The position numbers were made by a program, and so were the translations under genes. DNA of 64,000 nucleotides from Nocardia sp. BSTN01 (GTDB lineage: Bacteria; Actinomycetota; Actinomycetes; Mycobacteriales; Mycobacteriaceae). Of this stretch, positions 8,773 through 56,553 are shown piece after piece. Location: NCBI RefSeq assembly GCF_015354405.1, contig NZ_JADKYP010000019.1:48494-112493 (forward strand), in the 5' to 3' direction. The notes beneath the pieces are model-generated. The model was not told the DNA's origin. It saw only the letters and a list, made by a program, of their open reading frames with translations, and searched no databases. Position 1 is the stretch's first letter; every line of letters starts with the position of its first letter.

Positions 8773-15216
<6,444 letters not shown>

Positions 15217-42786: not shown

Positions 42787-44432
42787 TCGGCGGGCGCGAC
42801 GCGTTCGGTCTCCAGCTGCCGCCGCAGCAATTTCCCGGTCGCGTTGCGCGGCAGTTCGTCGACGAAGACGACATCGCGCGGAACCTTGTGGCGGGCGAGA
42901 TTCGCCTTGACGTAGTCGCGGATCTCCTCGGCGTCGACACTGGCGCCGGCGGTGCGAACGACGAAGGCGCGCAGCCGCTTTCCGAAATCGCGGTCGTCCA
43001 CCCCGACCACCGCGGCCTCCGCGACGTCGGCCCGGTTCACCAGGAGGTTCTCGACCTCCAAGGGGTAGACGTTCTCACCGCCGGAGACGATCATGTCGTC
43101 GTCGCGGCCGTCGACGAACAGCCGGCCGTCGGCGTCGAAATGCCCGACGTCGCCGCTGCACAACAACCCGTCCACGATCTCCTTGTGCTGCCCGTCGGTG
43201 TATCCGGTGAAGCTGAGGCCACTGGAGACGAAGATCGTGCCGACCACACCGGGGGTGGTCACCGGTTTGCGGTCGGAGTCGTAGATCGCGACCCGGCATC
43301 CGACCGGCGGACGGCCGACCGTACCCGGCGCCTCGCGCATATCCTGCGGTGTCGCCACCGCCGCCACCGCGACCTCGGTGGAGGCGTACAGGTTGTAGAG
43401 CACCTCGCCGAAAACCTCCGCGGTGCGGCGGCTCAGATCCGGGGACACCGACGAACCGGCGGCGAAGATCACCTCCAGCGACGACGTGTCGTACTGCCGC
43501 AACACCGATTCGTCGAGATCGACGATGCGCTGCAACATCGTCGGCACCAGCACGAGGGTCGCGGCGCGGTATTCGGCCACCGCGGCGAGCGTGCGGGCCG
43601 GATCGAATTTGCGCTGCCGGAAGACGATTCGATTTCCCAGCGCCCAGCCCAGCGTGCACTGGGAAAGTCCGGTGCCGTGGAAGATGGGGGCGGCCATCAC
43701 CATCGTCGCCTCGCGCGGCAGCGGGATCCGGTCGAGGAACTGCGCCGACTGCAGCGGGGAAACCTTTTCGCGCGGAGCACCTTTCGGAGTTCCGGTGGTG
43801 CCGCTGGTGAGAATCACGAGCCCGCCGGGGCGCGGGGGCGCCGCGACGGGGTCGGTGGAGTGCGGCTCGGCCTGCGCGTAGATGGTGGTGATATCGGAGG
43901 TGCCCTCGTCGTCCCAGGTGAGCAGCCGGGGGATGTCGGCGGGGACGGCTCGGGCGCGGTCGGCGAATTCACTGTCCAGCAGCAGCGCGTCGACCTTCTC
44001 GCGGGCGACGACCTCGGCGAGCTGCGGGCCGGCGGATCCGGTGTTGAGCAGCACCACGCGGGCACCCAGCTTGCCCGCGGCCAGCAGGCTCAGGACCATG
44101 CCGCGGTGATCGCGGCACAGCACGGCGAGGACGGATCCCGGCCCGAAGCCGTGGGCGGCGAGCCCGCGGGTGAGTGCGTTGGATTCGCGGTCGAGCTCGT
44201 CGAAGGTGAGGGTGCCGCGTTCGTCGACCAGCGCCGGCGCGGTCGGAGTGCGGCGCGCGGCGTGGGCGAGCACCGTGACGAACGGGCCGTAGGTTCCCGC
44301 GTCGCGCGCGGTCCGGACGATATCGAGCGGATGCCACGGGTCGAACATGCCGCGCCGCCGCAACACCGATGCCGCGGCGAACGCGTGACCGACGGACCGG
44401 ACCAGCTCGCCCGCAGAACTCGACAGCACCAC
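42783..44432 (-). CDS. FadD-type acyl-CoA synthetase / acyl-AMP ligase
   Basis: An adenylate-forming enzyme of about 549 residues that activates fatty acids with ATP. The P-loop is ILTSGTTGTPKGAP. Adenine and hinge motifs are LYNLYASTEVAVAA and DGRLFVDGRDDDMIVSGGEN (A8 with hinge). The catalytic Lys is in RNATGKLLRR near the C-terminus. The mobile C-domain is intact. No FAAL-specific insertion is evident from reading, so CoA ligase activity is more likely than acyl-AMP ligase. GTG at 44432 follows GAGG; a longer frame from 44507 adds a basic leader without support. Possible supply of starter acyl units to the polyketide synthase is inference. Confidence 0.9.
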   Translation of the reverse strand: MVLSSSAGELVRSVGHAFAAASVLRRRGMFDPWHPLDIVRTARDAGTYGPFVTVLAHAARRTPTAPALVDERGTLTFDELDRESNALTRGLAAHGFGPGSVLAVLCRDHRGMVLSLLAAGKLGARVVLLNTGSAGPQLAEVVAREKVDALLLDSEFADRARAVPADIPRLLTWDDEGTSDITTIYAQAEPHSTDPVAAPPRPGGLVILTSGTTGTPKGAPREKVSPLQSAQFLDRIPLPREATMVMAAPIFHGTGLSQCTLGWALGNRIVFRQRKFDPARTLAAVAEYRAATLVLVPTMLQRIVDLDESVLRQYDTSSLEVIFAAGSSVSPDLSRRTAEVFGEVLYNLYASTEVAVAAVATPQDMREAPGTVGRPPVGCRVAIYDSDRKPVTTPGVVGTIFVSSGLSFTGYTDGQHKEIVDGLLCSGDVGHFDADGRLFVDGRDDDMIVSGGENVYPLEVENLLVNRADVAEAAVVGVDDRDFGKRLRAFVVRTAGASVDAEEIRDYVKANLARHKVPRDVVFVDELPRNATGKLLRRQLETERVAPAD

Positions 44433-44565
44433 ACAGACCTCGATCCACCTCGGCCGGCGAACCCTTCCGTATCGCTTCGCCGGATCACTGTCAGAATACA
44501 CATTCACATATTCGGTGGTGTGCTGTTCGGTTGAGCATTGCTGCCGGCAACCATATGGTGAGAAG

Positions 44566-44586
44566 ATGAGACGTCTGACACCTCAT
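44566..44586. promoter_or_regulatory. Candidate operator upstream of the MpaB-like gene
   Basis: ATGAGACGT and ACACCTCAT form an inverted repeat matching at seven of nine positions with a three-base centre, ending 20 bases before the start of the oxygenase gene. The centre overlaps an AGACGTCT core. It suits a TetR-type repressor, but no regulator gene lies next to it. Confidence 0.4.
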
Positions 44587-44606
44587 TGACCCTCGGAGTG
44601 ATACGC

Positions 44607-45467
44607 ATGAATCGAGCCGCCCGAACCGTTTCCGCGGCCCCGGCGCCGGATGCCGGACTAGCCCGCCGGCGGCAGTACATGGCCGGTCCCGCGGCATTGC
44701 TGGGTGGTCCGGCGAATGTCGTGATGCAGCTCGGTTTGCCGCCCGTCGGTCGCGGGGTCGTCGAAAGTACCGTGGAAAGCGGTCAATACGCACGGCATCC
44801 GCGCAAGCGTGGCCGCACGACGCTGACCTATCTGGCGGTGGCGATGCTGGGGACCGAGGAGGACCGCGTCGCCTACCGTGCCGCCGTCGACACCTCGCAC
44901 CGGCAGGTGCGTTCGCGCCGCGGCAGCCCGGTCCGCTACAACGCCTTCGATCCGCAACTTCAGCTGTGGGTGGCCGCCTGTATCTATCGCGGCGTCGATG
45001 ATTCAACCAGATTCTTCTATGGAAGAATTGACGATAACTTAGCCGATGAGTTCTACCGAGAGTCCGCGCGTTTCGGCACGACGTTGCAGATGCCGGAGCG
45101 GCTGTGGCCGCCGGATCGGGCCGCCTTCGACGAGTACTGGAACGCCAAGTTGGGCGAGATCTCGTTCGACGACGAGGTCCGCCGCTATCTGCTCGACCAG
45201 GTCATCGGCCTGGGCCCGTACAGTCGCGCCCAGCGCATCGCCTTCGCGCGGGTCAATCGCTTCTTCACCACCGGATTCCTTCCCCAGCAGTTCCGCGACG
45301 CACTCGGACTCGGATGGGGGCCGCGGCGGCAACGCACCTTCGAGATCGTGATGCGAACCATCGGAACGGTGCTGAAGCGCCTGCCCGAACACTGGCGCAG
45401 CTACCCGTTCGACGGGTACATCGAGGACATGCGGCGGCGACAGGCGCTCGGTAAGTCGCTGGTGTAA
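44607..45467 (+). CDS. MpaB-family (DUF2236) oxygenase
   Basis: A 286-residue protein of the family that contains fungal MpaB, bacterial latex-clearing oxygenase and many actinobacterial proteins, usually b-type haem enzymes. Recognisable features are MAGPAALLGGPANVVMQLG, HPRKRGRTTLTYLAVAMLGT and FDPQLQLWVAACIYRG. Many relatives have a histidine in the WVHAT segment; here it is WVAAC, so haem binding should be confirmed by alignment. ATG at 44607 has GGAG upstream. It is divergent from fadD, which may indicate a shared lipid-related role. Confidence 0.82.
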   Translation: MNRAARTVSAAPAPDAGLARRRQYMAGPAALLGGPANVVMQLGLPPVGRGVVESTVESGQYARHPRKRGRTTLTYLAVAMLGTEEDRVAYRAAVDTSHRQVRSRRGSPVRYNAFDPQLQLWVAACIYRGVDDSTRFFYGRIDDNLADEFYRESARFGTTLQMPERLWPPDRAAFDEYWNAKLGEISFDDEVRRYLLDQVIGLGPYSRAQRIAFARVNRFFTTGFLPQQFRDALGLGWGPRRQRTFEIVMRTIGTVLKRLPEHWRSYPFDGYIEDMRRRQALGKSLV

Positions 45468-45511
45468 ACGGCGCTCAGGGCGCTTCCCGCTCCTCGCCGA
45501 CGAGGGATACC

Positions 45512-45694
45512 GTGGATGTCATGCCGTTCCGCGTATACACGACAGCGAGTGGGCCGGACCATGAGCAGTCTTTCCCCGACCCGGAGGACAACTTCAAGTT
45601 CCTCGAGGGGGGAGTGCTGGCGGTGTACACCGCGACGAAGTACACGTATTACGCCCCCGGCTTCTGGACCCACCTCGAGGAACACAAACCCTGA
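45512..45694 (+). CDS. Small protein of unknown function (60 aa)
   Basis: Starts at GTG 45512, with GAGGG six bases upstream, or ATG 45521. The sequence reads like a folded mini-protein: FRVYTTASGPDHEQSFPDPE, then NFKFLEGGVLAVYTATKYTY ending WTHLEEHK, giving a strand-helix-strand pattern with several aromatics. Not a recognised family, but the composition differs clearly from antisense noise. Follows the oxygenase gene by 44 bases. Confidence 0.65.
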   Translation: MDVMPFRVYTTASGPDHEQSFPDPEDNFKFLEGGVLAVYTATKYTYYAPGFWTHLEEHKP

Positions 45695-45723
45695 GCGTCT
45701 CCGGTCGACGACTCGTGCGGGCG

Positions 45724-46323
45724 TCAGGCCTGGTGTCGCTCGGGTTGAGCTGCGAGTTCCATGATCAGGACGTCGAAGAGGGGCGCATCGGGCCAGTTCG
45801 GACGTAGATGTCCGACGCGTTGCCAACCCCATTTGAGGTATGCGTTGTACGCGCGGGTGTTCTCCGGTTCGACGAGCAGTGTGGCGCGTTCTTCGGAACG
45901 GTTCCGGAGCAGTTCGTCGTGCAGAGCATGGGCAAGTCCGTGGCCTGTGTGTTCTTGGCAGACCATGATCTCGCTGAGTGCGAAGGTGCGGGTGCCCGTT
46001 TCGGCGGTGAAGTCGTCGGTATCGCCGCTGTCGAGGTTGAGACCGTCCCACCAGGCTGTTTGGGGAGTGAGTGGCCATCCCCATGCTTGACCGATGGCGT
46101 TGCCTCGAACGCGGCTGATCACGAGTTCGAAACCGTTTGATCGTGCGGGATCGGTATATGCGTCGAACCGGGCCATGAACTGTTCTGGTGTGTCGAATAG
46201 CTCGCCTGATGCGACGACGTCGGCATAGGACCGGCGATAGATGTCTTCGATGATGTCTTTGAGTTTTCGCGCCTGGCCTGCGTCGAGGTGCTCGAACTCG
46301 ACGTCGTCGGGGAACTGGGTCAT
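45724..46323 (-). CDS. GNAT-family N-acetyltransferase
   Basis: A 199-residue acetyltransferase. The acetyl-CoA loop appears as VCQEHTGHGLAHALHDELL (Q/R-x-x-G-x-G/A form), followed by the strand RATLLVEPENTRAYNAYLKW, the usual motif B. The N-terminal half has a helical stretch DAGQARKLKDIIEDIYRRSY. Its ATG overlaps the stop of the upstream regulator gene (ATGA), so it is translationally coupled to that gene. The acceptor amine is unknown. This gene begins the less GC-biased island. Confidence 0.87.
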   Translation of the reverse strand: MTQFPDDVEFEHLDAGQARKLKDIIEDIYRRSYADVVASGELFDTPEQFMARFDAYTDPARSNGFELVISRVRGNAIGQAWGWPLTPQTAWWDGLNLDSGDTDDFTAETGTRTFALSEIMVCQEHTGHGLAHALHDELLRNRSEERATLLVEPENTRAYNAYLKWGWQRVGHLRPNWPDAPLFDVLIMELAAQPERHQA

Positions 46324-47669
46324 CCGGTGATGGCTTTCTGTGTGAGAGCGTCGAATTGGTGGCGGAAGGTGTCGCCCGCCGCTAGGTCGTCGGCGGCGCG
46401 GCGAACTGGTTCCAGGACGCGCAAGGTTCGTGTTGAGGCCACGGTGGAGAGGTCTGTGATCACTGGTGTGCCGGTCTCGAGTGCGCCTGCGACATCGCCC
46501 ATCTGTGCCCTTGTCGTGGCGATCCATGCGCGGAGATTGATCGCGTTGCGTGTGCCGGCCTGTTGGTCGGCGGCGATGGTGTACAGCTCGAGTGATCTCG
46601 GCAGATCGCCGACATCGCCGTATCCGCGCGCTTCGTGGCCGCCGATTTCAGCGTGGTTCATGAACCGTAGCCATTGGGGGCAGTCCTCGATCGCCTCGAA
46701 CTGAGCGGCATGGTCCATCTCGCGCCATGCGGTGGCAATGGCGCGGCCGAAGGCGACGCGATCGCCCAGAGCGGCTTCGGCCTGTGCTTCCCGTACAGCG
46801 ATCAGGGCGTGGATCCGGCCTGGAGGTCGGCCGCGCATGAGGTCGCGAGCGCGGCCGACAAGTTGTAAGGCTTTGTGTGGACTGGCTTTTCCGGCGCGTG
46901 CGAGCGCGATGGATTGGTTGGCCGCGCACAGGCAGGTGTCTGCGATCAAGTCGTCGTTGTCGGCTTCGGTGCCGAGCGCCATGGCGTCGGCAAAGCAATG
47001 CTGCGCTAGGCGATGGCGGTCTGCGTCGTAGGCCAGCCATCCGGCCAGTACCGCCAGTTCCCCGGTCGCGCTGGTGAATGTGACTCCGGTTTTGCTGTCG
47101 TACGTGCTGGTGTGCAGCGTGTGCTTGGCCCGCTCGAGTTGTCCGAGCGCGAAGTCGACCAGTTCGGCGCCACCGGTGTGTTGGTCTTGTTGTTCGAGGG
47201 CATCTACCGCGGTCAGTAAGCGGTGGGCGTCGCTCATCCCGATTCGGGCCTGATCGCCGGACAGGAAGGCTACTGCTCCGGTAGCGGCAAGCTTCCCGAA
47301 ATCGCGCCGTCTCACCTCTTCATCGACTTCCCGCTCGACTGCCCCGGACCCGGTCGAGCCAGGGGTGGTACTCGACGCGAAGACTGGTGCCGCGCCGCTG
47401 AGAACAGGATGCCAATTCGTAGCCGGCCGCGCACCATGCAGATGTATCCAGAACCGTTGTTCCTGAGCGGATGAGAGACGCTGGTACACGGTGTCGAGCG
47501 CTTCGGCTGACCGCCCTCTGACGGGACGGTCGTTGGTTGCCTTCTGCTCCCACTTCTGGACCGTTTCGACCTTAAAGCCGACGAATTCGGCGAATTCTTC
47601 TTGGGTCATCCGGAGGGCAACCTGGCGCAGTGCGCGAACTTCGGCCTTGGTCCATGTGCTCACGATCAT
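46320..47669 (-). CDS. XRE-type regulator with TPR-like C-terminal domain
   Basis: A 449-residue regulator. Residues about 1-60 carry a helix-turn-helix: VRALRQVALRMTQEEFAEFV then GFKVETVQKWEQKA, the XRE pattern. A linker holds RRRDFGKLAATGAVAFLS, a pseudo-Tat/TM-like segment often seen in this actinobacterial group. The remaining 300 residues are helical repeats of TPR type, for example LAVLAGWLAYDADRHRLAQH and TCLCAANQSIALARAGK. Such proteins sense small peptides or metabolites and control adjacent operons. It is divergent from the operon starting at 47891 and probably regulates it. ATG at 47669; GTG at 47663 is possible. Confidence 0.87.
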   Translation of the reverse strand: MIVSTWTKAEVRALRQVALRMTQEEFAEFVGFKVETVQKWEQKATNDRPVRGRSAEALDTVYQRLSSAQEQRFWIHLHGARPATNWHPVLSGAAPVFASSTTPGSTGSGAVEREVDEEVRRRDFGKLAATGAVAFLSGDQARIGMSDAHRLLTAVDALEQQDQHTGGAELVDFALGQLERAKHTLHTSTYDSKTGVTFTSATGELAVLAGWLAYDADRHRLAQHCFADAMALGTEADNDDLIADTCLCAANQSIALARAGKASPHKALQLVGRARDLMRGRPPGRIHALIAVREAQAEAALGDRVAFGRAIATAWREMDHAAQFEAIEDCPQWLRFMNHAEIGGHEARGYGDVGDLPRSLELYTIAADQQAGTRNAINLRAWIATTRAQMGDVAGALETGTPVITDLSTVASTRTLRVLEPVRRAADDLAAGDTFRHQFDALTQKAITG

Positions 47670-47857
47670 TGCCGCCCCCCTGGTTTCGGCGCTGGATATG
47701 AGAAGCGTACGACCTCCGTCGGAATTCCGTGCCTGGGTTCACACCTGAGGGTGAGCGACGCTAAATCCAGGCCTCCGCTGCCGGTCCGACCTCAAACCCT
47801 TTGGGACATCTCTCACCTGATTGTGACTCCACGATCGGCGCGAGATCGCGGCGCCGG

Positions 47858-47871
47858 GTGCCTGCAGGCAC
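47858..47871. promoter_or_regulatory. Perfect palindrome GTGCCTGCAGGCAC in divergent promoter
   Basis: A 14-base perfect palindrome 19 bases before the start codon at 47891, in the 221-base region between the XRE regulator and the operon it probably controls. Its length and location suit an operator for that regulator, or a 5' UTR hairpin just ahead of the GAGAGGA ribosome site. Confidence 0.45.
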
Positions 47872-47890
47872 GAGCTGAGAGGACTTCGCA

Positions 47891-48583
47891 ATGAGCTCCG
47901 GGAAGTGGAGTGTTGAGCACCCGACAGCAGTCGGTCTGGTGCGCGCCGATGTTTCTGGAACCCAAATGACACGACATGCCAGCATGATTCGTCGACATGC
48001 CCACCGTTTGGGGTACCTCTACGTTTACACGGTATGCCCGCCTGTCGACGATGATCCGATTGGGTATGCGCTGGGTGTGGCCGCCGGTTTCGATGCGGAC
48101 GCACTATTCGTCTACGACCTGGAGACGGTCGGTCATACGCCGAGCCGGGTGTGTGAGATGTTGGATCTGGAGACGGTCAGTCCGCCCGCGACCTGGGCGG
48201 TTGTCGTGTCCGGCGATGTCGCTTCGTCGCACGCCTACCCGGAGCAGTCGCTTACGGCCGAGGCGGCTCATCGAATCATGCAGCAGCACTCGAGTTGCCG
48301 TGCCTTCGGATGCCAGAGGAAGGCTGCCGCTTATAGCTTCCTGGTCCGCGCGGGCAAAATTGTCCCGCCGGTCGATAGTCCGCGTGAACGAGCTGCCGCG
48401 CGAGGATTGCCGTTCCGCCTAAGTCGCGACGTGTACGGCTCGATGCCCGAGGGCGTGACTCTGCCGACCCTACTGAACGTATTGGCCGGGCTCGCTGAGC
48501 TGGAAGGCGATGCGGACGATTCGGCCGCCACTGACCCGCTAGCCGATAGCGCTGAGGCTGGAAGTGCTGGCGGGCGGCCATGA
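47891..48583 (+). CDS. Resolvase-like protein lacking a clear catalytic motif (230 aa)
   Basis: Residues about 13-100 follow the layout of a serine-recombinase N-terminal domain: AVGLVRADVSGTQMTRHAS (strand, then helix), GYLYVYTVCPPVDD (second strand), and ADALFVYDLETVGHTPSRV, the usual D.lvv..ldRl segment. The catalytic Ser and following Arg cluster are not evident, and the C-terminal DNA-binding domain is replaced by an acidic tail. It may be a repurposed resolvase fold. GAGAGGA precedes the ATG. It is the first gene of the island operon and opposite the XRE regulator. Function unknown. Confidence 0.6.
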   Translation: MSSGKWSVEHPTAVGLVRADVSGTQMTRHASMIRRHAHRLGYLYVYTVCPPVDDDPIGYALGVAAGFDADALFVYDLETVGHTPSRVCEMLDLETVSPPATWAVVVSGDVASSHAYPEQSLTAEAAHRIMQQHSSCRAFGCQRKAAAYSFLVRAGKIVPPVDSPRERAAARGLPFRLSRDVYGSMPEGVTLPTLLNVLAGLAELEGDADDSAATDPLADSAEAGSAGGRP

Positions 48584-48825
48584 GCTTCGCGAGTTCTTCG
48601 GCAGCTCAGCGTGTTTCGCCTCTGCCTCACGAGCCGGATGTGGTTCTTCGTGTTCGCATCAGTCTCTTGAGCGGACAAGAACTGAGGTTCGTTGCGTGCG
48701 AGTCGGCGGCCCGCCGGTTCGCCGAGTACTGGGTCGCTTATCACCGGCCCGACACCGTCACGTTCGCACCGCCGGATCGGACGTGTCCGAGGCTCCCATG
48801 CGAGCGCCTGTGGGCACTCCCGTAG
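48580..48825 (+). CDS. Small protein of unknown function (81 aa)
   Basis: The ATG overlaps the stop of the resolvase-like gene (ATGA), so translation is coupled. Sequence such as VLRVRISLLSGQELRFVACE and RFAEYWVAYHRPDTVTF suggests a small alpha/beta domain. Not recognised. Its product could be a partner of the resolvase-like protein. Confidence 0.6.
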   Translation: MSFASSSAAQRVSPLPHEPDVVLRVRISLLSGQELRFVACESAARRFAEYWVAYHRPDTVTFAPPDRTCPRLPCERLWALP

Positions 48826-48877
48826 CCAGTTCCACTGATACTTCGCTTCCAATAGGACCGAAACGCAAGGGGCCAGA

Positions 48878-50437
48878 ATGTATGACCATCATCGAATTGA
48901 ACAAATAGTCATGCCGAGGAAGCTGAACGAGTTCATCCGGCAGGGCCCGACCGCGGATACAGCCGGCGCCGAGCTGCATCGTGCCCTCGATCTCGGAATG
49001 CTCTTCAAAGGGCAGCCTCATGTTTTCGAGAGGCGGATGTCGGCCGATGAGATTCGGGATCGTCTGGTGACCGAGTTGCCGGCCGAGGGACTGACAGTCG
49101 AAGCAGCCTTGGATCGTTTTATTGCCGAGATTCTGCCGCTGTGTAAGAACGAGGCGAGTCCTCGGTTCCTCGGCTTCGGCGATACCGGCGATGATCCGGC
49201 AGCGTTGGTCGGTGGTGTCCTTGCGATGTTGACGCAGCAGAACATGATCAATCAGAGCTTCGATTCACCGAGCGCTACCTTTATAGAGATTGCGGTACTG
49301 CGGTGGTTGCGGGAGTTGATCGGGTACCGCAATCTCGCCGTCGCCGATCTGTCGTCGGTGTGGGACGTCGGTGGCGTGGTTACGTACGGCGGAACGACGA
49401 GCAATGCCGTCGCGATGTTGTTGGCACGTGAGGCGAAAGCACCGGGAACGATGCAGCGCGGTGTGGCTGATGTCGATAGGTTCGGTGTTGTCGTGCCCCG
49501 TGGTATCGGTCATTACAGCGTGAAGAGTGCGTTGGCCTGGATCGGTGTGGGAGCGCGTGTGATCGAGGCGAAGACTCGCGGGTTTCGCTATGACCTGCAC
49601 GATTTGGTGCGATTGTTGGCAGAGCACCGGGGCCGGGTGATGGCTGTAGTCGCATATGCCGGCGACAGCCGGACGCAGACTGTCGACCATTTGCGCGAAG
49701 TGCACGATGTGGTCCGTGCTGTCGATCCGGCGATCTGGCTGCATGCCGATGCATGTTGGGGTCTGGTCGCCACATTCAGCGACGCGTTGCGTCACCTGGT
49801 AGCGGGCATCGAGTTGTTCGACAGCGTGACGGTCGACCCGCACAAGGTTATGGCGGTGCCATATGGGTTGAGCGCGTTACTGGTTCGGCGGCCGGACAGT
49901 CTGCGCATGGTCGCGAGTCATTCTGATCTGATCATGCAGGAGGACTTTGCCTTCGGGCAGGCTACGCCGTTCATCGGCACGAAAGACTGGTCGTCGTTGA
50001 AGCTATGGATGATGATGGTGACCAACGGGCGAACCGGGCTCGCGGAAATCGCCGAACGGCGAATCACCCTCGCACGTCGGTTTTCGAACTTGGTGGATGA
50101 GCGGCCTGGGTTGCGGCGCCTTCATGAACCCGAGCTTGCGGCAGTCGCATTCATTTGTCTTCCGTCCGACCTTTCCGCCGATGGGTGTCTCACCGCCGCG
50201 GACCTGGAAGAAATCAACGTGCTGAACCGCCGTGTCCACGAGCGGATACTCGAGGACGGGCGTTGGTATCTTCACCACTTCACTCTGCCCGATGACAACG
50301 GTGTGCTTCGCCGCGGAGAGATTGTGCATGCGCTGCGGTTCATGGCGAACAATCCGCGGCTGACCGACAGTCACATGACCCAGGCCCTGGACTACGTGGC
50401 AGAGCTCTGCCGGCTGGTGGAGGCGTGCGATGAGTGA
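48878..50437 (+). CDS. PLP-dependent amino-acid decarboxylase (group II)
   Basis: A 519-residue enzyme that would remove CO2 from an amino acid using pyridoxal phosphate. The PLP lysine is Lys323 in TVDPHKVMAVPYG, and the ring-stacking region is WLHADACWGL. SPRFLGFGDTGDDPAALVGG and YGGTTSNAVAMLLA are typical of the glutamate/aromatic/diaminobutyrate decarboxylase family. The substrate is not decided by these motifs. ATG at 48878 follows AAGGGG; an overlapping out-of-frame ATG at 48882 opens an eight-codon frame (MTIIELNK). The 3' end overlaps the methyltransferase by eight bases. Confidence 0.88.
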   Translation: MYDHHRIEQIVMPRKLNEFIRQGPTADTAGAELHRALDLGMLFKGQPHVFERRMSADEIRDRLVTELPAEGLTVEAALDRFIAEILPLCKNEASPRFLGFGDTGDDPAALVGGVLAMLTQQNMINQSFDSPSATFIEIAVLRWLRELIGYRNLAVADLSSVWDVGGVVTYGGTTSNAVAMLLAREAKAPGTMQRGVADVDRFGVVVPRGIGHYSVKSALAWIGVGARVIEAKTRGFRYDLHDLVRLLAEHRGRVMAVVAYAGDSRTQTVDHLREVHDVVRAVDPAIWLHADACWGLVATFSDALRHLVAGIELFDSVTVDPHKVMAVPYGLSALLVRRPDSLRMVASHSDLIMQEDFAFGQATPFIGTKDWSSLKLWMMMVTNGRTGLAEIAERRITLARRFSNLVDERPGLRRLHEPELAAVAFICLPSDLSADGCLTAADLEEINVLNRRVHERILEDGRWYLHHFTLPDDNGVLRRGEIVHALRFMANNPRLTDSHMTQALDYVAELCRLVEACDE

Positions 50438-51347
50438 GCTCGGTCAGTTCCGGGCCGTGTACGAGGCCGCTGGTGTGTACGACAAGCTGTTGTTGCCGCA
50501 CTACTTCGACGGCCGAGATGACGTGGCGATGGTCGCGGACCTGCTCGAGCGCACGATCGGTGTGCCCGGCCAGACGTTGTCCGTTGTTGAATTCGGTTGT
50601 GGTACAGGACGAATGACCTCGGTGCTGGAGCCATATGCCTTTCGATTGGTGGCTTGTGACTACAGTGCGGCCATGATCGATGCTGTGGTCGACAACGTCG
50701 CGGCAGTCGAAACGGTCCGGGCGGATACTCGTGACGCGGTAGCAAAGTTATTGCGCGAGGGTCAAGGCGGTCGGTTCGATATCGTCGCGGCGTTCTGGTC
50801 GTTGAGCTATCCGATAGGGGAGTTCTTCGAGCAAATGTCCGCTCACGCGATTACACCTCTCGAGGACGTCGCCCTGGCTCGGGAGCGAGCCATGCATTTC
50901 GTCGAGGACATGCTGAAACTACTTGCACCTCAAGGACACTTCCTCGCCGTGCACTTCGATGCTGAGACGCCAGAGCAACGGCTTGTCACCCGACTGTGGG
51001 AACGAGTCTGCCCATTTCCTGAGGGCGGGCGCAGCTACACGCTGAGCCTTCTGCTCGACGGGCTACGTGTCTACGAGGACCATGGGTATGGCGTTCTGTC
51101 GCACACGCGCTGTGGTGGTTCGGCCGTGGCGCCCAACCGGGAAGCGGCGTTGCGATGGTTCCTGGTGGTGCACCTCAAGAGCTATCCAGCACTTGTTCGG
51201 GACCCGCAAGTCCACGCGGAGATTGAGGAGTTCATCGCCCGTTACGCGCTGCCAGACGGTTCGGTCGCCCTGCCCAGTGGGGCCCACGTAGTCCATTTCC
51301 GGCGCAGCGGCCACCCGGTCTGTCACATCCCGCGGAGGCAGCCATGA
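50430..51347 (+). CDS. Class I SAM-dependent methyltransferase
   Basis: A 305-residue enzyme. Motif I is VVEFGCGTGRMTSVLEP, motif II follows at RLVACDYSAAMIDAV with the acidic residue for ribose, and post-motif segments include FDIVAAFWSLSYPIGEF. N- and C-terminal extensions beyond the Rossmann core are present. Overlaps the decarboxylase by eight bases and the nucleotidyltransferase by four, so the three are one translational unit. It would methylate the decarboxylation product or a derived metabolite, or, alternatively, a nucleic acid; the target is unknown. Confidence 0.87.
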   Translation: MSELGQFRAVYEAAGVYDKLLLPHYFDGRDDVAMVADLLERTIGVPGQTLSVVEFGCGTGRMTSVLEPYAFRLVACDYSAAMIDAVVDNVAAVETVRADTRDAVAKLLREGQGGRFDIVAAFWSLSYPIGEFFEQMSAHAITPLEDVALARERAMHFVEDMLKLLAPQGHFLAVHFDAETPEQRLVTRLWERVCPFPEGGRSYTLSLLLDGLRVYEDHGYGVLSHTRCGGSAVAPNREAALRWFLVVHLKSYPALVRDPQVHAEIEEFIARYALPDGSVALPSGAHVVHFRRSGHPVCHIPRRQP

Positions 51348-52051
51348 GCATTCTCGCCGCAGTGGAACAGGCCTGCCGTATACGGGGCGACTACGTCGGC
51401 CGTCAGGGCTATGGACTGGTCTACGGCTCGCACGCCACCGGGACCGGCACGCCGACATCAGACCTGGACCTCGTCCTGATCGGTCCTGAGCAACTTTCCG
51501 CAGCACGAATGAGCCAGCTCATAGCCGAGATCTGCGCCCTTCACCATCGATTCGGGCTCGACTTGGATACCGAAGTCGCCTACGAGACGAAGCTGTTTGC
51601 CACTTTCGATGACGTCCACAACGCCGTCGCGCTGCGGTGTTTCGACCGCGACGACGGAATAATCCGGGCAGTCCCAGTAGTGGCCGAGCCCGCGTTTCTG
51701 AACTCCCATCGGTTTGGATCGCGCCTACTGCTCAACGCCCTCACCAGTCCACACATCTTTCTCGGTGGCGACACCACTCGATATCGCGTTCACCTGCAGG
51801 AAGCAGAGGCAGCGCTGGCGCGGCTCGCGTTGGCATTGGTCTCGGACACGGTCGTGAGCATGGCTGACATCAGCCGCGCCGTCGTCAGTTGTGCGAGCGC
51901 GGTTGGTAAGGACTTCCTCGGGTACGACGATGGAGCGCACCTGCGGTCGACACTTGCACGGGGGTTGGGCGAACTCATGGCCGAAGGATTCATCAGCGAC
52001 ATCGACGGCACACACATCCGCAAACCGACGGATCGACCGCAAGAGATCTGA
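51344..52051 (+). CDS. Pol-beta-superfamily nucleotidyltransferase
   Basis: A 235-residue protein. YGSHATGTGTPTSDLDLVLI matches the family motif GS..G....SD.D with both metal-binding aspartates; a third acidic residue may lie in LDTEVAYE. The C-terminal 100 residues are helical. Relatives include antibiotic nucleotidyltransferases and minimal MNT proteins of toxin-antitoxin pairs. Here it follows a methyltransferase by overlap and precedes an ArgRS, which favours a metabolic or tRNA-linked role. Activity not assigned. Confidence 0.85.
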   Translation: MSILAAVEQACRIRGDYVGRQGYGLVYGSHATGTGTPTSDLDLVLIGPEQLSAARMSQLIAEICALHHRFGLDLDTEVAYETKLFATFDDVHNAVALRCFDRDDGIIRAVPVVAEPAFLNSHRFGSRLLLNALTSPHIFLGGDTTRYRVHLQEAEAALARLALALVSDTVVSMADISRAVVSCASAVGKDFLGYDDGAHLRSTLARGLGELMAEGFISDIDGTHIRKPTDRPQEI

Positions 52052-52122
52052 GATGCCAACAGGCCTGCCCCTTGCCGGCCTGGGATACTGGCCCATCCCT
52101 ACTATTCAGGAGGATTCTTCCC

Positions 52123-53889
52123 GTGGCCCACACCGGGGTTCTGCCGTTGATCGACCTTGTCGCTGATGCCGTGTCTCGTGCGGTCAGCGTGGTCCGACCC
52201 GATGCGGCAGGCGCCGACCCGGTAGTCCGACGATCCGCACACGCCGATTTCCAATCCAACGTTGCTCTTTCTCTGGCCAAGCGATTGAAGACCAAGCCGG
52301 TCGAACTGGCGACTGAATTCGCCGAGAACCTGGAATCCGTTGGAGCGCCGGTAGTTTCGGTGGAGCTGTCCGGCCCTGGTTTTCTGAATATCGGGGTTTC
52401 CGATAGGGCGGTGTGGCGGCAGGTCGCGGCACGACTGGTCGATGACCGCCTCGGGGTGGCGGCGTCGGAGGATGGTCGTCGGACGGTGATCGATTACTCG
52501 GCGCCCAACATCGCCAAGGAGATGCACGTCGGGCATCTGCGGACGACGATCATCGGCGACAGCTTGGCCCGCGTGCTGGAGTTCCTGGGGGCGAAGGTGG
52601 TTCGTCAGAATCACTTGGGCGACTGGGGAACTCAGTTCGGGATGCTGATCCAATACTTGGACGAACACCCGAATGCGCGCTGGCGGCACGAGGACCTCGC
52701 TGAGCGGGACGGATCGTCGGTGTCCGCGTTGGACGGGTTGTACAAGGCTGCGCGTAAGGAGTTCGACGCCGACTCGGCGTTCGCGGACAGGTCGCGGGCA
52801 CGGGTGGTGGCGTTGCAGGCCGGTGACCCGGCGACGCTGGCTCGGTGGCGTGAGATCGTCTCCGAGTCGGAACAAGCTTTCGCCGACATCTACAGTCGGC
52901 TCGGGGTGCTGCTGACTGCCGAGGATTCGGTGGGGGAATCGTTCTACAACTCGATGCTGGCGGACACCATCGACGAGCTGGTCGGCAAGGGGATCGCGGT
53001 CGAGAGCGATGGCGCGCTGGTCGTTTTCTCCGAGGAAGTGAACGGTCCGGACGGCCGGCCCGTGCCATTGATGGTGCGCAAAAGCGACGGTGGATACGGT
53101 TACGACACAACCGATCTCGCTACGATCCACTACCGGATCAACGAGTTGGGGGCGCAACGGCTGCTGTATGTGACCGACTCCCGCCAAGCCCTGCACTTCC
53201 AACTGACCTTCGAAACCGCGAGGCGCGCAGGCTGGCTCACCGACAAAGTCGACGCGGAGCACATCGCCTACGGCACGGTCCTCGGCCCCGACGGCAGGCC
53301 GTTCAAGACCCGCGCCGGTGGAACCGTGCGATTGATGGACCTACTCGACGACGCTTTCACGAAGGCCCGTGAAGTTGTCGCTGACAAAGACCCCGACCTG
53401 GACCCGGCAGAGCTGGACAACATCGCCGAACAGGCCGGGATCGGTGCAGTGAAGTATGCCGATCTGTCGACTTCGCGGGTCAAGGACTACACCTTCGACC
53501 TCGACCGCATGATCGCATTCAACGGAAACACCTCCGTATATCTGCAATACGCGCATACGCGGATCCGTTCGATCCTCCGCAAGGCGGGCGAGCCTGCACC
53601 GGTTGTCGATATCGACCTGGTTCTTGAACCGGCCGAACGTGCGCTCGCCTTGGAACTCGATACCTATAGCTCGACCGTCCGTGAGGTCGCCGAATTACTC
53701 GAGCCACACCGGTTGTGCGGATATCTGTACGAGCTGGCGCGCGACTTCACCACCTTCTACGACAACTGCCCCGTCCTGAGCGTGCCCGAACCTGTGCGAG
53801 GCAACCGCCTGGCGTTGTGTCAGCTGACTGCCGCGACGCTCGCTCACGGGCTCGGGCTTTTGGGAATCGCTGCCCCTGAACGGATGTAG
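52123..53889 (+). CDS. Arginyl-tRNA synthetase of the E. coli type (second-type ArgRS)
   Basis: A class I synthetase of 588 residues. The HIGH element is in APNIAKEMHVGHLRTTIIGD, followed by HLGDWGTQFGMLIQYL. A later DSRQALHFQL, FKTRAGGTVRL in place of KMSKS, and terminal GIAAPERM match ArgRS. The catalytic parts look complete. This sequence style matches E. coli ArgRS, whereas the housekeeping ArgRS of mycobacteria and Nocardia reads EFVSANPTGPIHIGGTRW at this point. It is thus likely an extra, acquired copy. GTG at 52123 has AGGAGGA upstream. Possible roles are self-resistance against an arginine-like antibiotic or supplying Arg-tRNA to biosynthesis. Confidence 0.92.
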   Translation: MAHTGVLPLIDLVADAVSRAVSVVRPDAAGADPVVRRSAHADFQSNVALSLAKRLKTKPVELATEFAENLESVGAPVVSVELSGPGFLNIGVSDRAVWRQVAARLVDDRLGVAASEDGRRTVIDYSAPNIAKEMHVGHLRTTIIGDSLARVLEFLGAKVVRQNHLGDWGTQFGMLIQYLDEHPNARWRHEDLAERDGSSVSALDGLYKAARKEFDADSAFADRSRARVVALQAGDPATLARWREIVSESEQAFADIYSRLGVLLTAEDSVGESFYNSMLADTIDELVGKGIAVESDGALVVFSEEVNGPDGRPVPLMVRKSDGGYGYDTTDLATIHYRINELGAQRLLYVTDSRQALHFQLTFETARRAGWLTDKVDAEHIAYGTVLGPDGRPFKTRAGGTVRLMDLLDDAFTKAREVVADKDPDLDPAELDNIAEQAGIGAVKYADLSTSRVKDYTFDLDRMIAFNGNTSVYLQYAHTRIRSILRKAGEPAPVVDIDLVLEPAERALALELDTYSSTVREVAELLEPHRLCGYLYELARDFTTFYDNCPVLSVPEPVRGNRLALCQLTAATLAHGLGLLGIAAPERM

Positions 53890-54030
53890 ACCGCAATCGA
53901 AGAGAACTGTCGCCGCGACGCGGAGCACCGCACCAAGCCATATCTGGGCTGAATGGGCATCCGGCCGCAGATCGGGCCGACACCCAGCCGGGGCGCGGCT
54001 ACATCCGTCACCGCGTGACCTTCGCCCCGG

Positions 54031-54056
54031 TTGCACCCCTCACTCGAGGAGTGCAA
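54031..54056. terminator. Hairpin between ArgRS and NUDIX genes
   Basis: TTGCACCCCTC and GAGGAGTGCAA pair at 10 of 11 positions around loop ACTC, in the convergent gap between two genes. It can serve both directions. Confidence 0.5.
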
Positions 54057-54114
54057 ACCCTGCTCCCTGGTCGCCGGACCGGGGAAACCCCAGCGCCCAG
54101 AGGTGTTGCGGCCG

Positions 54115-54675
54115 CTACGCGGACAGCGCGGTGCGCAGTTTGGTGAGGAATCGGCCTATGTGCGGGTCGGATTCGGGGATGGTGTCGCGATCGATCTCCC
54201 ACCAGCGGCCGCCTGCGAATTCGCGCGGGTCGAGGGTGAAGGGGTGGTCGCGGTGGCCGCGGATCACGTACCAGAGCGAGACGTCGCGGTGGGGGTGAGC
54301 GCCGACTGTTCGGGTGCTGGTGAGGAACAGGGGACGTTCGCCGACGACGGTGAAATCGGCGTCCGTTCCGAGTTCTTCGGCGGCTTCTCGTCGCGCGGCG
54401 TGCAGAGGGTCTTCCCCCGGATCCACGTGACCGCCCATGGGCAGGCGTAGTCCGGACTTGCGGTGGGCGCCGAGCAGTACGGCGCGGGCATCCGGATCGA
54501 CGACCACCACATATGAGACCAGGTGTTGTGGCGGTGTGGCCGGGGGTTCCCGGCGGAAGATGTCGTCGGTGGCGGCGAGCCAGGACAGTGTCTCCCGGAT
54601 GTGCTCCTGCTCGAGGGGGTCCAGCGGGGTGATCGCTGCGACGATGTCCGCGACGACCGCGGTGGCGGGGTGCAT
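54115..54675 (-). CDS. NUDIX hydrolase
   Basis: A 186-residue pyrophosphohydrolase. The full NUDIX box is present: GHVDPGEDPLHAARREAAEE followed by LG, matching GX5EX7REUXEEXGU. The preceding strand VVVVDPDARAVLLGAHRKSG is the usual substrate platform. These enzymes hydrolyse nucleoside diphosphates linked to another moiety, such as oxidised dNTPs or nucleotide sugars. The N-terminal 50 residues are helical. ATG at 54675 has no strong ribosome site. The gene ends near the ArgRS but transcribes in the opposite direction. Confidence 0.9.
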   Translation of the reverse strand: MHPATAVVADIVAAITPLDPLEQEHIRETLSWLAATDDIFRREPPATPPQHLVSYVVVVDPDARAVLLGAHRKSGLRLPMGGHVDPGEDPLHAARREAAEELGTDADFTVVGERPLFLTSTRTVGAHPHRDVSLWYVIRGHRDHPFTLDPREFAGGRWWEIDRDTIPESDPHIGRFLTKLRTALSA

Positions 54676-54725
54676 GGGGCGACGATAGCGGCGGGTACCG
54701 ACAATCGAGCCGGGCTACTCGGGGG

Positions 54726-55685
54726 CTACTGCGGGCGGGTGAGGCGCAGTTGCGCGATCAGCGCCTTGTGATCGGCACCGGGCAGGCGGATCGTGTCGAC
54801 GGTGTCCGCGTGGCCGTCGGCGACCAGGATGTGGTCGATGCCGACCAGTGGTGGCCAGCGCTTGTCGGTCGGATATGTGACGAGGTGGCCGGCGCCCTCC
54901 TGTTCGACGGCGTCGTGGAACCGGTCGGAGAGCATCGCGCGGAATTGGGCATGGTCGAAGGTCGCGTTGAAATCGCCGCCGACGATCACCGGCCGATCCG
55001 CGGGCGAACGGTCGAGAATGGCTCGTAGCCGGGACAATTCGTCGGCCCACAGGTGTATTCCGGAGATCGGGGGCACCGGATGGAAGGCATAGACGCTGAC
55101 CGGTCCGACCCCCGGGACGGTGGCGGTCGCGGAGAGCTGGTTCAGGACGAATCCGTCGTATTCGACAGTGTCCGAGAGTGGATAGGCGCTCCAGATTCCG
55201 GTACCGGTGGCGGTGCGCCCGGGTGACAGATATCGATGCGGCAGCAACCGGTCCAGGCCCACGCCCTCGAGGGCGTGCACCGCGGCCGGAGTCAGTTCCT
55301 CGACGGTCAGAATGCCGACCTTGCGTTCGCGCACCTGCTCGATCAGCGCGTGCGGATCCGCGCCGTCGAAGAGCAGATTGGCCTGCATCACCGTCACCGG
55401 TGTGCCGTGATCGCCGGGGGAGCGGCCGACATACAGCGGAGCCTGCGTCCAGATCGCCACGCCCACAACGGCAATGGCCACCGCGACCCCGGCCCACCGC
55501 TTCGCGGCAGCGAACAGTGCCACCCCGACCAGCGCGGCACACATCAGATACGGCGCACCCGACGCCGCCAGAATCAGCCAGCGGGACTCGGTTCGATTGA
55601 AGTGCAGTGCCACTCCGGCGGCGCCGACCAGGGTCGCGACCACCGCAAACGATTCGAGCGTGATCCGCCCCCACGCCGCCTTCAC
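54726..55685 (-). CDS. Membrane-anchored endonuclease/exonuclease/phosphatase-family protein
   Basis: A 319-residue protein. The first 100 residues have three hydrophobic helices (for example FAVVATLVGAAGVALHF and VAVAIAVVGVAIWTQA). The rest is an EEP domain with VMQANLLFD (Asn for metal), VEELTP (Glu), VIVGGDFNATF (Asp-x-Asn) and a final GADHKAL (Asp-His), the standard catalytic set. The domain would face outside. Members include sphingomyelinase-like and DNase-like phosphodiesterases. GTG at 55685 was chosen because it follows GGGAG. The substrate is unknown. Confidence 0.86.
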   Translation of the reverse strand: MKAAWGRITLESFAVVATLVGAAGVALHFNRTESRWLILAASGAPYLMCAALVGVALFAAAKRWAGVAVAIAVVGVAIWTQAPLYVGRSPGDHGTPVTVMQANLLFDGADPHALIEQVRERKVGILTVEELTPAAVHALEGVGLDRLLPHRYLSPGRTATGTGIWSAYPLSDTVEYDGFVLNQLSATATVPGVGPVSVYAFHPVPPISGIHLWADELSRLRAILDRSPADRPVIVGGDFNATFDHAQFRAMLSDRFHDAVEQEGAGHLVTYPTDKRWPPLVGIDHILVADGHADTVDTIRLPGADHKALIAQLRLTRPQ

Positions 55686-55914
55686 GCTCCCGACCCCCGC
55701 ACCCTGGATCCGGTGATCGCCCGCCGCGCGGCTTCGTTCGCCGTCGTCGCATCCCGCAGGCAGGACGCCGGGAGACAAGGCCGTTCGGCCGTCCTCCGAC
55801 AGGGATTGTCGTGCTCGTCGCCGACTGTGCGGATCCCGTACGCGCACGGCTCGGGCGGGGGAAACGGCACGGTACTCCCATCGATCGATCGGCTCGCGGA
55901 TGTGGTGAGTGTAT

Positions 55915-56553
55915 TCAGTCCTCCCGGACGGGTTTTCGGCCGTCCGACGGTGCGGCCGTGCCGTACAGCACGTTGGTGACCAGGGTGGTGGCGAAATGCT
56001 CGCCGAGCGGCAGATTCGGTAGCAGCAGGCGGTGGTAGCAGGCGCCCCACAGTTGGTCCACGACGCTCTCCGGATCGATATCGGCGCGCAGTTGCCCGCG
56101 CTGCTGCGCGCGGCGTATGGCCTCCACGGCCAGTCGGCGGCGCGGTCCCGAATAGCGTTCGAGCAGGGCGGCGGACAGGTCCGGATCGGTTTGGGCCTGA
56201 CCGATGAGTTCGGCGATCACCCGTCCGGCGCGCGTGCGGGTGAGGACGTGAACGAACGAGCGGAGCTGGGCGGTCAGATCGGCTTCGATATCGCCGGTAT
56301 CCGGGAAGGTGAGCGCGGATTCGACGGCATGGAAGTATCCGTCGAGCGCGAGCGCGCCCTTCGACGGCCACCATTTGTACAGCGTCGTCTTGCTGACGCC
56401 GGCCTTCTCGGCGACCGCCTCGATGGTGAACGCGCCCATCCCCGATTCGAGGAGCAGCGCGCCGGCGGCGTCGAGCGCTTCGGCGCGCACTTCGGCAGCC
56501 GGACGGCGGCCGCGGCCTCGTCGCTTCCGCCCCGCCTCGTCCTGTTCGGGCAT
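55915..56553 (-). CDS. TetR-family repressor
   Basis: A 212-residue regulator. The helix-turn-helix reads GAFTIEAVAEKAGVSKTTLY then KWWPSKGALALDGY, typical of TetR. The C-terminal half is the helical ligand/dimer domain with VDQLWGACYHRLLLPNLPLG, the TetR_C_16-like end. ATG at 56553 has GGAGG seven bases upstream; an earlier ATG would overlap that site. It is divergent from the SDR gene, with a palindrome between them that it probably binds. Confidence 0.92.
   Translation of the reverse strand: MPEQDEAGRKRRGRGRRPAAEVRAEALDAAGALLLESGMGAFTIEAVAEKAGVSKTTLYKWWPSKGALALDGYFHAVESALTFPDTGDIEADLTAQLRSFVHVLTRTRAGRVIAELIGQAQTDPDLSAALLERYSGPRRRLAVEAIRRAQQRGQLRADIDPESVVDQLWGACYHRLLLPNLPLGEHFATTLVTNVLYGTAAPSDGRKPVRED

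Follow-up and report, generated by a model that had tools for sequence, protein, structure and literature searches.

This study concerns a gene cassette in a 64,000-nucleotide stretch of DNA from Nocardia sp. BSTN01 (contig NZ_JADKYP010000019.1, positions 48,494 to 112,493), hereafter called the window, which belongs to a 7.8 Mb Nocardia assembly. The core of the cassette encodes, in this order, a group II pyridoxal phosphate (PLP)-dependent decarboxylase, a class I S-adenosylmethionine (SAM)-dependent methyltransferase-fold protein (MT), a pol-beta-superfamily nucleotidyltransferase (NT) and a second full-length arginyl-tRNA synthetase (ArgRS). From the sequence comparisons reported here we consider the chances even that such cassettes make an amino-acid-derived, nucleotide-bearing inhibitor of ArgRS or of methionyl-tRNA synthetase (MetRS), with the encoded synthetase serving as immunity. 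The observations behind this proposal are the gene set itself, its conservation, the duplication of the synthetase, an association, across ten genomes, between the cassette ArgRS and the type of the host's own enzyme, and a pocket signature in one clade of cassette MetRS.

Conservation and replacement of the core in Nocardia

Among 151 genomes of the genus, the decarboxylase of the window matches 12 places at 63-100% identity, the window included, and five places nearly full-length at 39-40%, the remaining matches being weaker; among carriers with a species name, N. nova MDA0897 and N. mikamii come closest, with a decarboxylase 94% identical. We read the neighbourhoods of 16 of these places over up to 20 kb each, 11 of them closer and five distant. 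The order decarboxylase-MT-NT-ArgRS is kept in all 11 closer loci, making 12 Nocardia loci with the window, and it recurs in other actinomycetes; the five distant loci carry decarboxylase and NT with a MetRS in place of MT and ArgRS. The initial annotation had described the whole eight-gene locus as an acquired operon travelling as a set, a description that is supported for the four core genes, whose order is kept and which are replaced in a sibling genome, but not for the accessory genes around them.

The sibling genome G040 is 95.6% and 95.3% identical to the window on the two flanks (window 43,883-47,431 and 53,920-56,451; blastn) and carries 1.7 kb of different sequence at the place of the 6.5 kb cassette. 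The swapped segment, without match in the sibling locus L139, extends approximately from 47431 to 53920, its left breakpoint lying inside the XRE-family regulator gene and its right one about 30 bases beyond the ArgRS stop codon. Judged from this alignment, the cassette is a replaceable unit, and the difference between the window and G040 fits gain or loss alike. The site next to the pair of XRE and GNAT genes may be an exchange hot spot. By eye, the sibling carries Nudix-like and XRE-like genes at the cassette site (about 2505-3723 of L139). In four other Nocardia loci (L022, L023, L027 and L028) the genes immediately before the decarboxylase encode a tandem of related proteins of about 370 and 480-530 residues; again by eye, both contain a Nudix-box-like RE-x-x-EE stretch, and the larger one also has an XRE-like part. 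An order-wide profile search gave 1/397, a figure that is uninformative because only three candidates per genome were scored.

Spread beyond Nocardia and partner genes

The idea of a cassette confined to actinomycetes did not survive a decarboxylase-profile scan of genome contigs, entered through two short peptide patterns, in which the best 80 of 84 relatives represent 78 distinct loci. Carriers include Nocardia, Streptomyces, Kitasatospora, Frankia, Glycomyces, Pseudonocardiaceae and Promicromonospora, and also many metagenome-assembled genomes (MAGs) of Bacilli and Clostridia, Patescibacteria, Alphaproteobacteria, Myxococcales, Lactobacillus, Fusobacteriales and Pacearchaeota. Partners were tallied within 6.5 kb, using models built from the loci of this analysis and our own hidden Markov model score thresholds. 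An NT accompanies the decarboxylase in 71 of the 78 loci, an aminoacyl-tRNA synthetase (aaRS) in 56 (34 MetRS and 22 ArgRS), an MT in 24, a CobD/HisC-like aminotransferase also in 24, a type I phosphodiesterase in nine and a RelA/SpoT gene in eight, whereas in 18 ordinary Nocardia decarboxylase loci taken as controls NT, MT and synthetase were each found in none, with one weak aminotransferase match. Three Lactobacillus loci scored as having no NT carry an NT-like motif by eye, and several of the 22 synthetase-less loci stop at a contig edge. Three synthetase-less loci (L064, L070 and L077) have a MetRS of clade M2, described below, elsewhere in the genome, the L064 copy being partial with V257 alone visible.

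The distances of decarboxylase, NT and aaRS correlate with r values of 0.70-0.92, and none of 2000 permutations gave values as high; between decarboxylase and synthetase r is 0.72 over 30 MetRS loci and 0.92 over 21 ArgRS loci (L095, L097, L098, L107, L109, L059 and L094 were omitted, as was L057 for MetRS). A quick decarboxylase tree places the ArgRS type inside MetRS-type lineages and requires five changes of the synthetase label where two would be the minimum, suggesting that synthetases have probably been exchanged between cassettes.

Several loci show further genes. In four Lactobacillus and Fusobacteriales variants (L106 at 8824-14867, L107, L109 and L096) the decarboxylase is accompanied, by eye, by a fusion protein of 1100 residues with NT, adenylation, carrier and condensation-like parts, the gene in L109 being cut by the contig end; three of the four have a gene that looks like a transporter of the major facilitator superfamily (MFS), also by eye, and these loci are perhaps an undescribed small non-ribosomal peptide synthetase (NRPS) pathway. 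A Streptomyces plasmid has an MFS gene behind those for decarboxylase and aminotransferase. In eight Bacilli-type loci (L066, L070, L073, L074, L076, L082, L085 and L093) the decarboxylase gene is preceded, either directly or at a distance of up to about 4 kb, by a gene for a short RelA/SpoT homologue (480 residues in L066). ARAGORN, run on the window and 83 loci, detected tRNA genes in 11 of the loci and none in the window; the sole tRNA-Met (L092) lies 0.2 kb before an NT-aminotransferase gene, and on these results a dedicated cassette tRNA gene was rejected. Carriage by phages was rejected as well: no relative was confirmed in the viral contig collection, and the only phage matches were two diaminobutyrate-decarboxylase genes at 25% identity.

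The core enzymes

The decarboxylase (48878..50437, plus strand) matches Pfam Pyridoxal_deC with 138 bits, and, among solved structures, cysteine-sulfinate, glutamate and diaminobutyrate decarboxylases come nearest to it, along with an unnamed group II enzyme. In an alignment of 74 sequences, which omitted L095, L097, L098, L107 and L109 (gene split or short), the catalytic residues H212, D291, K323 and R487 are at least 95% invariant, as are the family hallmarks D102 and D263-S264-R265 across partner types. Seven positions separate Arg-type from Met-type enzymes, among them 92, 105, 129 and 294 (E/D/D/W versus F/N/C/H), and the Arg type is acidic at three of these four. The Arg-type decarboxylases form one branch of the decarboxylase tree.

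The MT (50430..51347, plus strand; Pfam), which belongs to the core in ArgRS-type cassettes, gives an AlphaFold model with a pLDDT of 91.7 and has relatives in two Patescibacteria loci. A homologue (27% identity, E 9e-22) is encoded on the Exiguobacterium alkaliphilum plasmid pE73 (L113, 4739-8864), within a microcin-C-like operon with a ThiF adenylyltransferase, an AAA protein and an MFS transporter. The NT (51344..52051, plus strand) matches Pfam NTP_transf_2 with 25 bits against a cut-off of 21 and has a helical C-terminal part; its AlphaFold model has a pLDDT of 95.1. It carries the motif GS...DxD with a third Asp, and D40, D42, D75 and K83 are invariant in 34 of 34 homologues.

The cassette synthetase

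In 22 of the 25 genomes examined, another copy exists besides the cassette synthetase, with 5 of 5 for ArgRS and 17 of 20 for MetRS; of the 17 ordinary MetRS copies one has an in-frame stop and one is partial. The three exceptions are MAGs (L084, L091 and L088), in which the cassette MetRS may be the sole copy or the assembly may be incomplete. In the window genome the ArgRS gene (52123..53889, plus strand; TIGR00456, 468 bits) lies in a reading frame open from 52072, and its start is probably the GTG at 52123, which has AGGAGG ahead of it at 52108-52113 and gives a protein of about 588 residues that matches the length of its relatives. The protein carries an N-terminal domain and a DALR anticodon-binding domain (DALR_1, P0008). 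Its earlier description as foreign-type was upheld, the only other ArgRS found in the window genome matching it in two pieces at 36 and 30%.

Whether the cassette carries an ArgRS goes with the type of the host's own ArgRS in the ten genomes compared. In all five ArgRS-cassette hosts tested (L037, L041, L051, L087 and the window) the second ArgRS is of a distant type A, 28-40% identical in pieces. Conversely, five Streptomyces hosts with ArgRS-less cassettes (L048, L049 and L054-L056) have a single ArgRS that we could find, of type B and 52-55% identical to the cassette enzyme. All 81 Streptomyces genomes searched have type B, one of them with a second type B; no type A was found in 79, and the other two (G602 and G616) have both types and may carry further cassettes nearby. 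Kitasatospora (L087), a neighbour of Streptomyces, obeys the rule. From this pattern in five plus five genomes, a cell with the cassette seems to need a type B ArgRS, which would suit replacement of a target and, less simply, a biosynthetic need.

The cassette MetRS sequences, represented in the alignment by the best-scoring MetRS of each locus (the second MetRS of L097 and of L098 was left out), fall into clades M1 (8 rows, SH-aLRT 100) and M2 (26 rows, SH-aLRT 97), separate from the enzymes of their hosts. D52, Y260 and H301 (E. coli numbering) are kept throughout. All 34 also keep N391, R395 and W461, the residues that read the tRNA-Met anticodon, save for one gap in the split L081 gene. 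At positions 13 and 257, in the amino-acid pocket, clade M2 has L13W and P257V in 26 of 26 sequences; W13/V257 occurs in none of 22 readable ordinary copies, where position 13 is I or L and position 257 is L or P (L128 and L159 have no position 13). This suggests that the M2 enzyme has an altered amino-acid site and, because N391, R395 and W461 are kept, that it should still charge tRNA.

Layout, composition and accessory genes

Reading of the open reading frames (ORFs) confirmed eight packed genes in two divergent arms over 45,724-53,889, the leftward arm with an XRE/NsdA-type TPR regulator and a GNAT gene and the rightward arm with a 230-residue protein, an 81-residue ORF and the four core genes. 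The reported overlaps of 4-8 bases were recovered between XRE and GNAT (4 bases, 46320-46323), between the 230-residue and 81-residue ORFs (4 bases, 48580-48583), between decarboxylase and MT (8 bases, 50430-50437) and between MT and NT (4 bases, 51344-51347). The lower G+C content of the locus was likewise confirmed: per kilobase it is 0.60-0.63 over 45-54 kb versus 0.68-0.70 over 37-45 kb and 0.67-0.72 over 54-60 kb, single kilobases elsewhere in the window also dipping to 0.63-0.66, and third-position G+C is 0.65-0.76 in the cassette genes versus 0.79-0.94 in chosen neighbours, with the exception of one neighbour at 0.75. Pfam and NCBIfam upheld the families proposed from the sequence, namely Pyridoxal_deC, class I methyltransferase, NTP_transf_2, ArgRS, NsdA-type TPR regulator and GNAT.

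The neighbourhoods of relatives do not support the genes beside the core as obligatory parts of the system and show them to be exchangeable surroundings. These are the GNAT-family N-acetyltransferase (45724..46323, minus strand; Pfam Acetyltransf_1), whose start, corrected here to 46323 from 46527, overlaps the stop of the XRE gene; the regulator with an XRE helix-turn-helix and an NsdA-type TPR part (46320..47669, minus strand; NCBIfam NsdA_fam_reg, 165.6 bits); the 230-residue protein (47891..48583, plus strand); and the 81-residue protein of no assigned family (48580..48825, plus strand). Among the 16 Nocardia places all four jointly adjoin the core only in the two closest relatives. The GNAT gene adjoins the core in L019 and L020, is present as fragments in L026 and is retained in the cassette-less sibling G040. 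In the two closest relatives a full-length XRE gene adjoins the core, and distant or partial matches occur in L024, L025 and L031. L025 has XRE in two pieces together with GNAT at a distance of about 4.3 kb; besides it and the two closest relatives, the loci that show XRE or GNAT matches, all partial or distant, number three. Across the 78 decarboxylase loci an XRE-TPR gene lies within 6.5 kb in five (own model). The 81-residue protein is 90-91% identical in L019 and L020 and has a 43% homologue in L034. The 230-residue protein, initially called resolvase-like, has no match in Pfam, NCBIfam or PADLOC; its family is multicopy, with matches in 146 of 150 Nocardia genomes (E 0.001) and at least 15 places in the window genome, and it was rejected as a component of the system.

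The 14-base perfect palindrome GTGCCTGCAGGCAC reported in the divergent intergenic region does exist (47858..47871), but the role of operator implied for it found no support, since it is one of 15 perfect 14-base palindromes in the window and has one and two mismatches in the two closest relatives; it is probably there by chance. A promoter and terminator scan gave a signal near that of the shuffled control.

Discussion

Of the two readings offered initially, we prefer a small-molecule cluster, in which the synthetase would protect the producer or act as a donor, to a conflict system, because PADLOC names no system, no viral relatives were confirmed, and distant variants have transporters and an NRPS module. 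In the mechanism that we favour, the decarboxylase and the NT, joined by the MT in the ArgRS type, would make a small molecule that derives from an amino acid and bears a nucleotide. It would most likely imitate arginyl-adenylate where the cassette has an ArgRS and methionyl-adenylate where it has a MetRS. This product would poison the cognate aaRS of susceptible cells, and the cassette synthetase would be an insensitive second copy that keeps the producer's translation running. We infer in this way the existence of a product, the presence of a nucleotide in it, its inhibition of a synthetase and the insensitivity of the cassette copy. There is precedent for such protection, as the producers of albomycin, mupirocin, indolmycin and agrocin are described as having an insensitive second aaRS (PMC9032320, PMC9437257). 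HIT hydrolases are likewise described as conferring immunity to microcin C (PMC7157772), and possible detoxification genes, variable between loci, are those for HIT-like proteins in L057 and L087 (by motif), the type I phosphodiesterase and, at the window, the GNAT.

In a broader form, which we put forward only tentatively, an undescribed, phylum-spanning family of cassettes, built from the decarboxylase, the pol-beta NT and an exchangeable ArgRS, MetRS or NRPS adenylation module, would make aminoacyl-nucleotide-type inhibitors of ArgRS and MetRS and move as a unit between bacteria, being present even in Patescibacteria assemblies of 0.7 Mb, with the type of synthetase matching the gap left by the host's own enzymes.

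Several points weigh against the proposal of an inhibitor with its immunity gene. The product, its activity and the expression of the cassette are all hypothetical, and the window cassette shows neither an exporter nor a peptide carrier. No M2 MetRS turned up in seven genomes of the Met type or with a variant cassette (L065, L083, L090, L072, L096, L106 and L104), so the MetRS copy is not essential to the system. The cassette ArgRS keeps the canonical arginine-pocket residues that were checked in 23 of 23 sequences. The host pattern of ArgRS is confounded with taxonomy, Streptomyces versus others in five plus five genomes, and would also fit a biosynthetic need for a type B ArgRS; furthermore, a divergent type A copy could have been missed, since the search used an E limit of 1e-12 and known type A copies score 1e-15 to 1e-22. 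The correlated distances would also follow from joint descent, as they would from joint transfer. MAGs of 0.7 Mb from Patescibacteria would be unexpected makers of an antibiotic. Finally, the window MT and decarboxylase showed no relation to MccD and MccE of E. coli ATCC 25922 by BLASTP, nor, for MccE, by hhalign.

The strongest alternative, possible although rather unlikely in our judgement, is that the synthetase acts as a biosynthetic donor in the manner of valanimycin, its Arg- or Met-adenylate or aminoacyl-tRNA being condensed with the decarboxylation product, with immunity secondary or absent. The fusion of the NT to an adenylation-carrier unit in Lactobacillus and Fusobacteriales, two of whose genomes were tested and have no M2 MetRS, looks as if activators interchange, and the changed M2 pocket could mean a new substrate. 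The seven positions that distinguish Met- from Arg-type decarboxylases point the same way, but the Arg type is a single branch, so that they may all go back to a single event. In the core we noticed no aminoacyl-tRNA-dependent transferase, although no homology search for one was made, and the GNAT is limited to the window and its close kin. Hosts with a type A enzyme would, moreover, need no second ArgRS if any Arg-tRNA sufficed. The two roles would not exclude each other if albomycin is a guide, whose SerRS2 is reported both to supply seryl-adenylate and to give immunity (PMC9032320).

An anti-phage or other conflict system, in which the NT and an altered synthetase guard tRNA charging, is improbable. 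Genes resembling type I restriction-modification systems lie within 20 kb in five Nocardia loci (by eye), XRE regulators are nearby, siblings differ in the presence of the cassette, and the defence protein mad2 has a methyltransferase part that the MT matches with 49.7 bits. Pol-beta NTs do occur in toxin-antitoxin and defence systems, but the matches to MntA and PDC here are below or near noise. Against this explanation, six of the eight proteins have no match in PADLOC, the viral and phage searches gave nothing closer than the two diaminobutyrate-decarboxylase genes, Pfam recognises no HEPN or nuclease family in the cassette, and decarboxylase, CobD/HisC-like aminotransferase and MT point to metabolism; a PADLOC-type defence system was rejected, as no system is named and the NT matches are weak. 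Equally improbable is that the cassette is a common catabolic or polyamine-type operon in which the synthetase gene hitch-hikes. This would suit the nearest relatives of the decarboxylase but not its association, in different phyla, with synthetases of two class I families, versus 0 of 18 controls, nor the correlated distances.

If the proposal of an inhibitor with its own immunity is true, it predicts natural inhibitors of ArgRS and MetRS, enzymes against which, to our knowledge, few or no natural products are known. A gene for this kind of decarboxylase next to one for a pol-beta NT would then be a signature for finding such inhibitors in cultured actinomycetes, lactobacilli and uncultured lineages. 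It would also explain the second MetRS in some very small Patescibacteria genomes and provide a testable case of a cassette that has or lacks its resistance gene depending on which type of the enzyme the host itself possesses. With W13 and V257, the M2 signature offers a probe of how the amino-acid pocket of MetRS can be rebuilt.

Comparison with known systems

Literature searches, mainly of open-access papers, returned no description of this gene combination. A link to the ichizinone cluster was rejected, as its authors call the neighbouring ArgRS unrelated. In a comparison with the type VII toxin-antitoxin system (HEPN-MNT), the NT scores 23.2 bits against MntA, where the cut-off is 60, and no HEPN family was found in the cassette.

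In the valanimycin pathway the decarboxylase is VlmD. That pathway, which is further reported to use VlmA and the seryl-tRNA synthetase (SerRS) VlmL (PMC12945691, PMC9032320), resembles the cassette in combining a decarboxylase and a dedicated aaRS in one cluster. It differs in that the cassette has an NT, and ArgRS or MetRS instead of SerRS; in the neighbourhoods that we read, we noticed no conserved aminoacyl-tRNA transferase of the GNAT fold, homology to VlmA itself not having been searched. The mycothiol ligase MshC has lost its anticodon-binding domain, unlike the cassette ArgRS, which retains this domain, and the cassette MetRS, which retains the anticodon residues. What it shares with them is that a class I aaRS relative, in its case one resembling cysteinyl-tRNA synthetase, takes part in metabolism (PMC9437257).

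In microcin C, aspartyl-tRNA synthetase is poisoned by a peptidyl-adenylate to which a SAM enzyme and a PLP decarboxylase add a decoration (PMC7157772, PMC10491745), and the cassettes share with this system the adenylyltransferase logic, a SAM-dependent enzyme together with a PLP decarboxylase, and an aaRS as presumed target. GNAT or HIT-like genes in some loci, an MFS gene in some variants and the homologue of the window MT in the ThiF-MFS operon of pE73 add to this likeness. Unlike microcin C, the window cassette encodes no ThiF/MccB protein recognisable by Pfam or NCBIfam, its NT being a pol-beta NTP_transf_2 protein, and it has the aaRS gene inside the cassette. Recognisable homology with E. 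coli MccD and MccE was rejected (BLASTP, and hhalign for MccE), so the resemblance is one of logic, not of membership. The self-resistance synthetases of albomycin, agrocin 84, mupirocin and indolmycin differ from the cassette in that the latter has ArgRS or MetRS, another biosynthetic core and an insensitivity that is only putative. They share with it an arrangement in which a distant second copy of an essential aaRS lies beside biosynthesis enzymes, with the housekeeping copy elsewhere (PMC9032320, PMC9437257).

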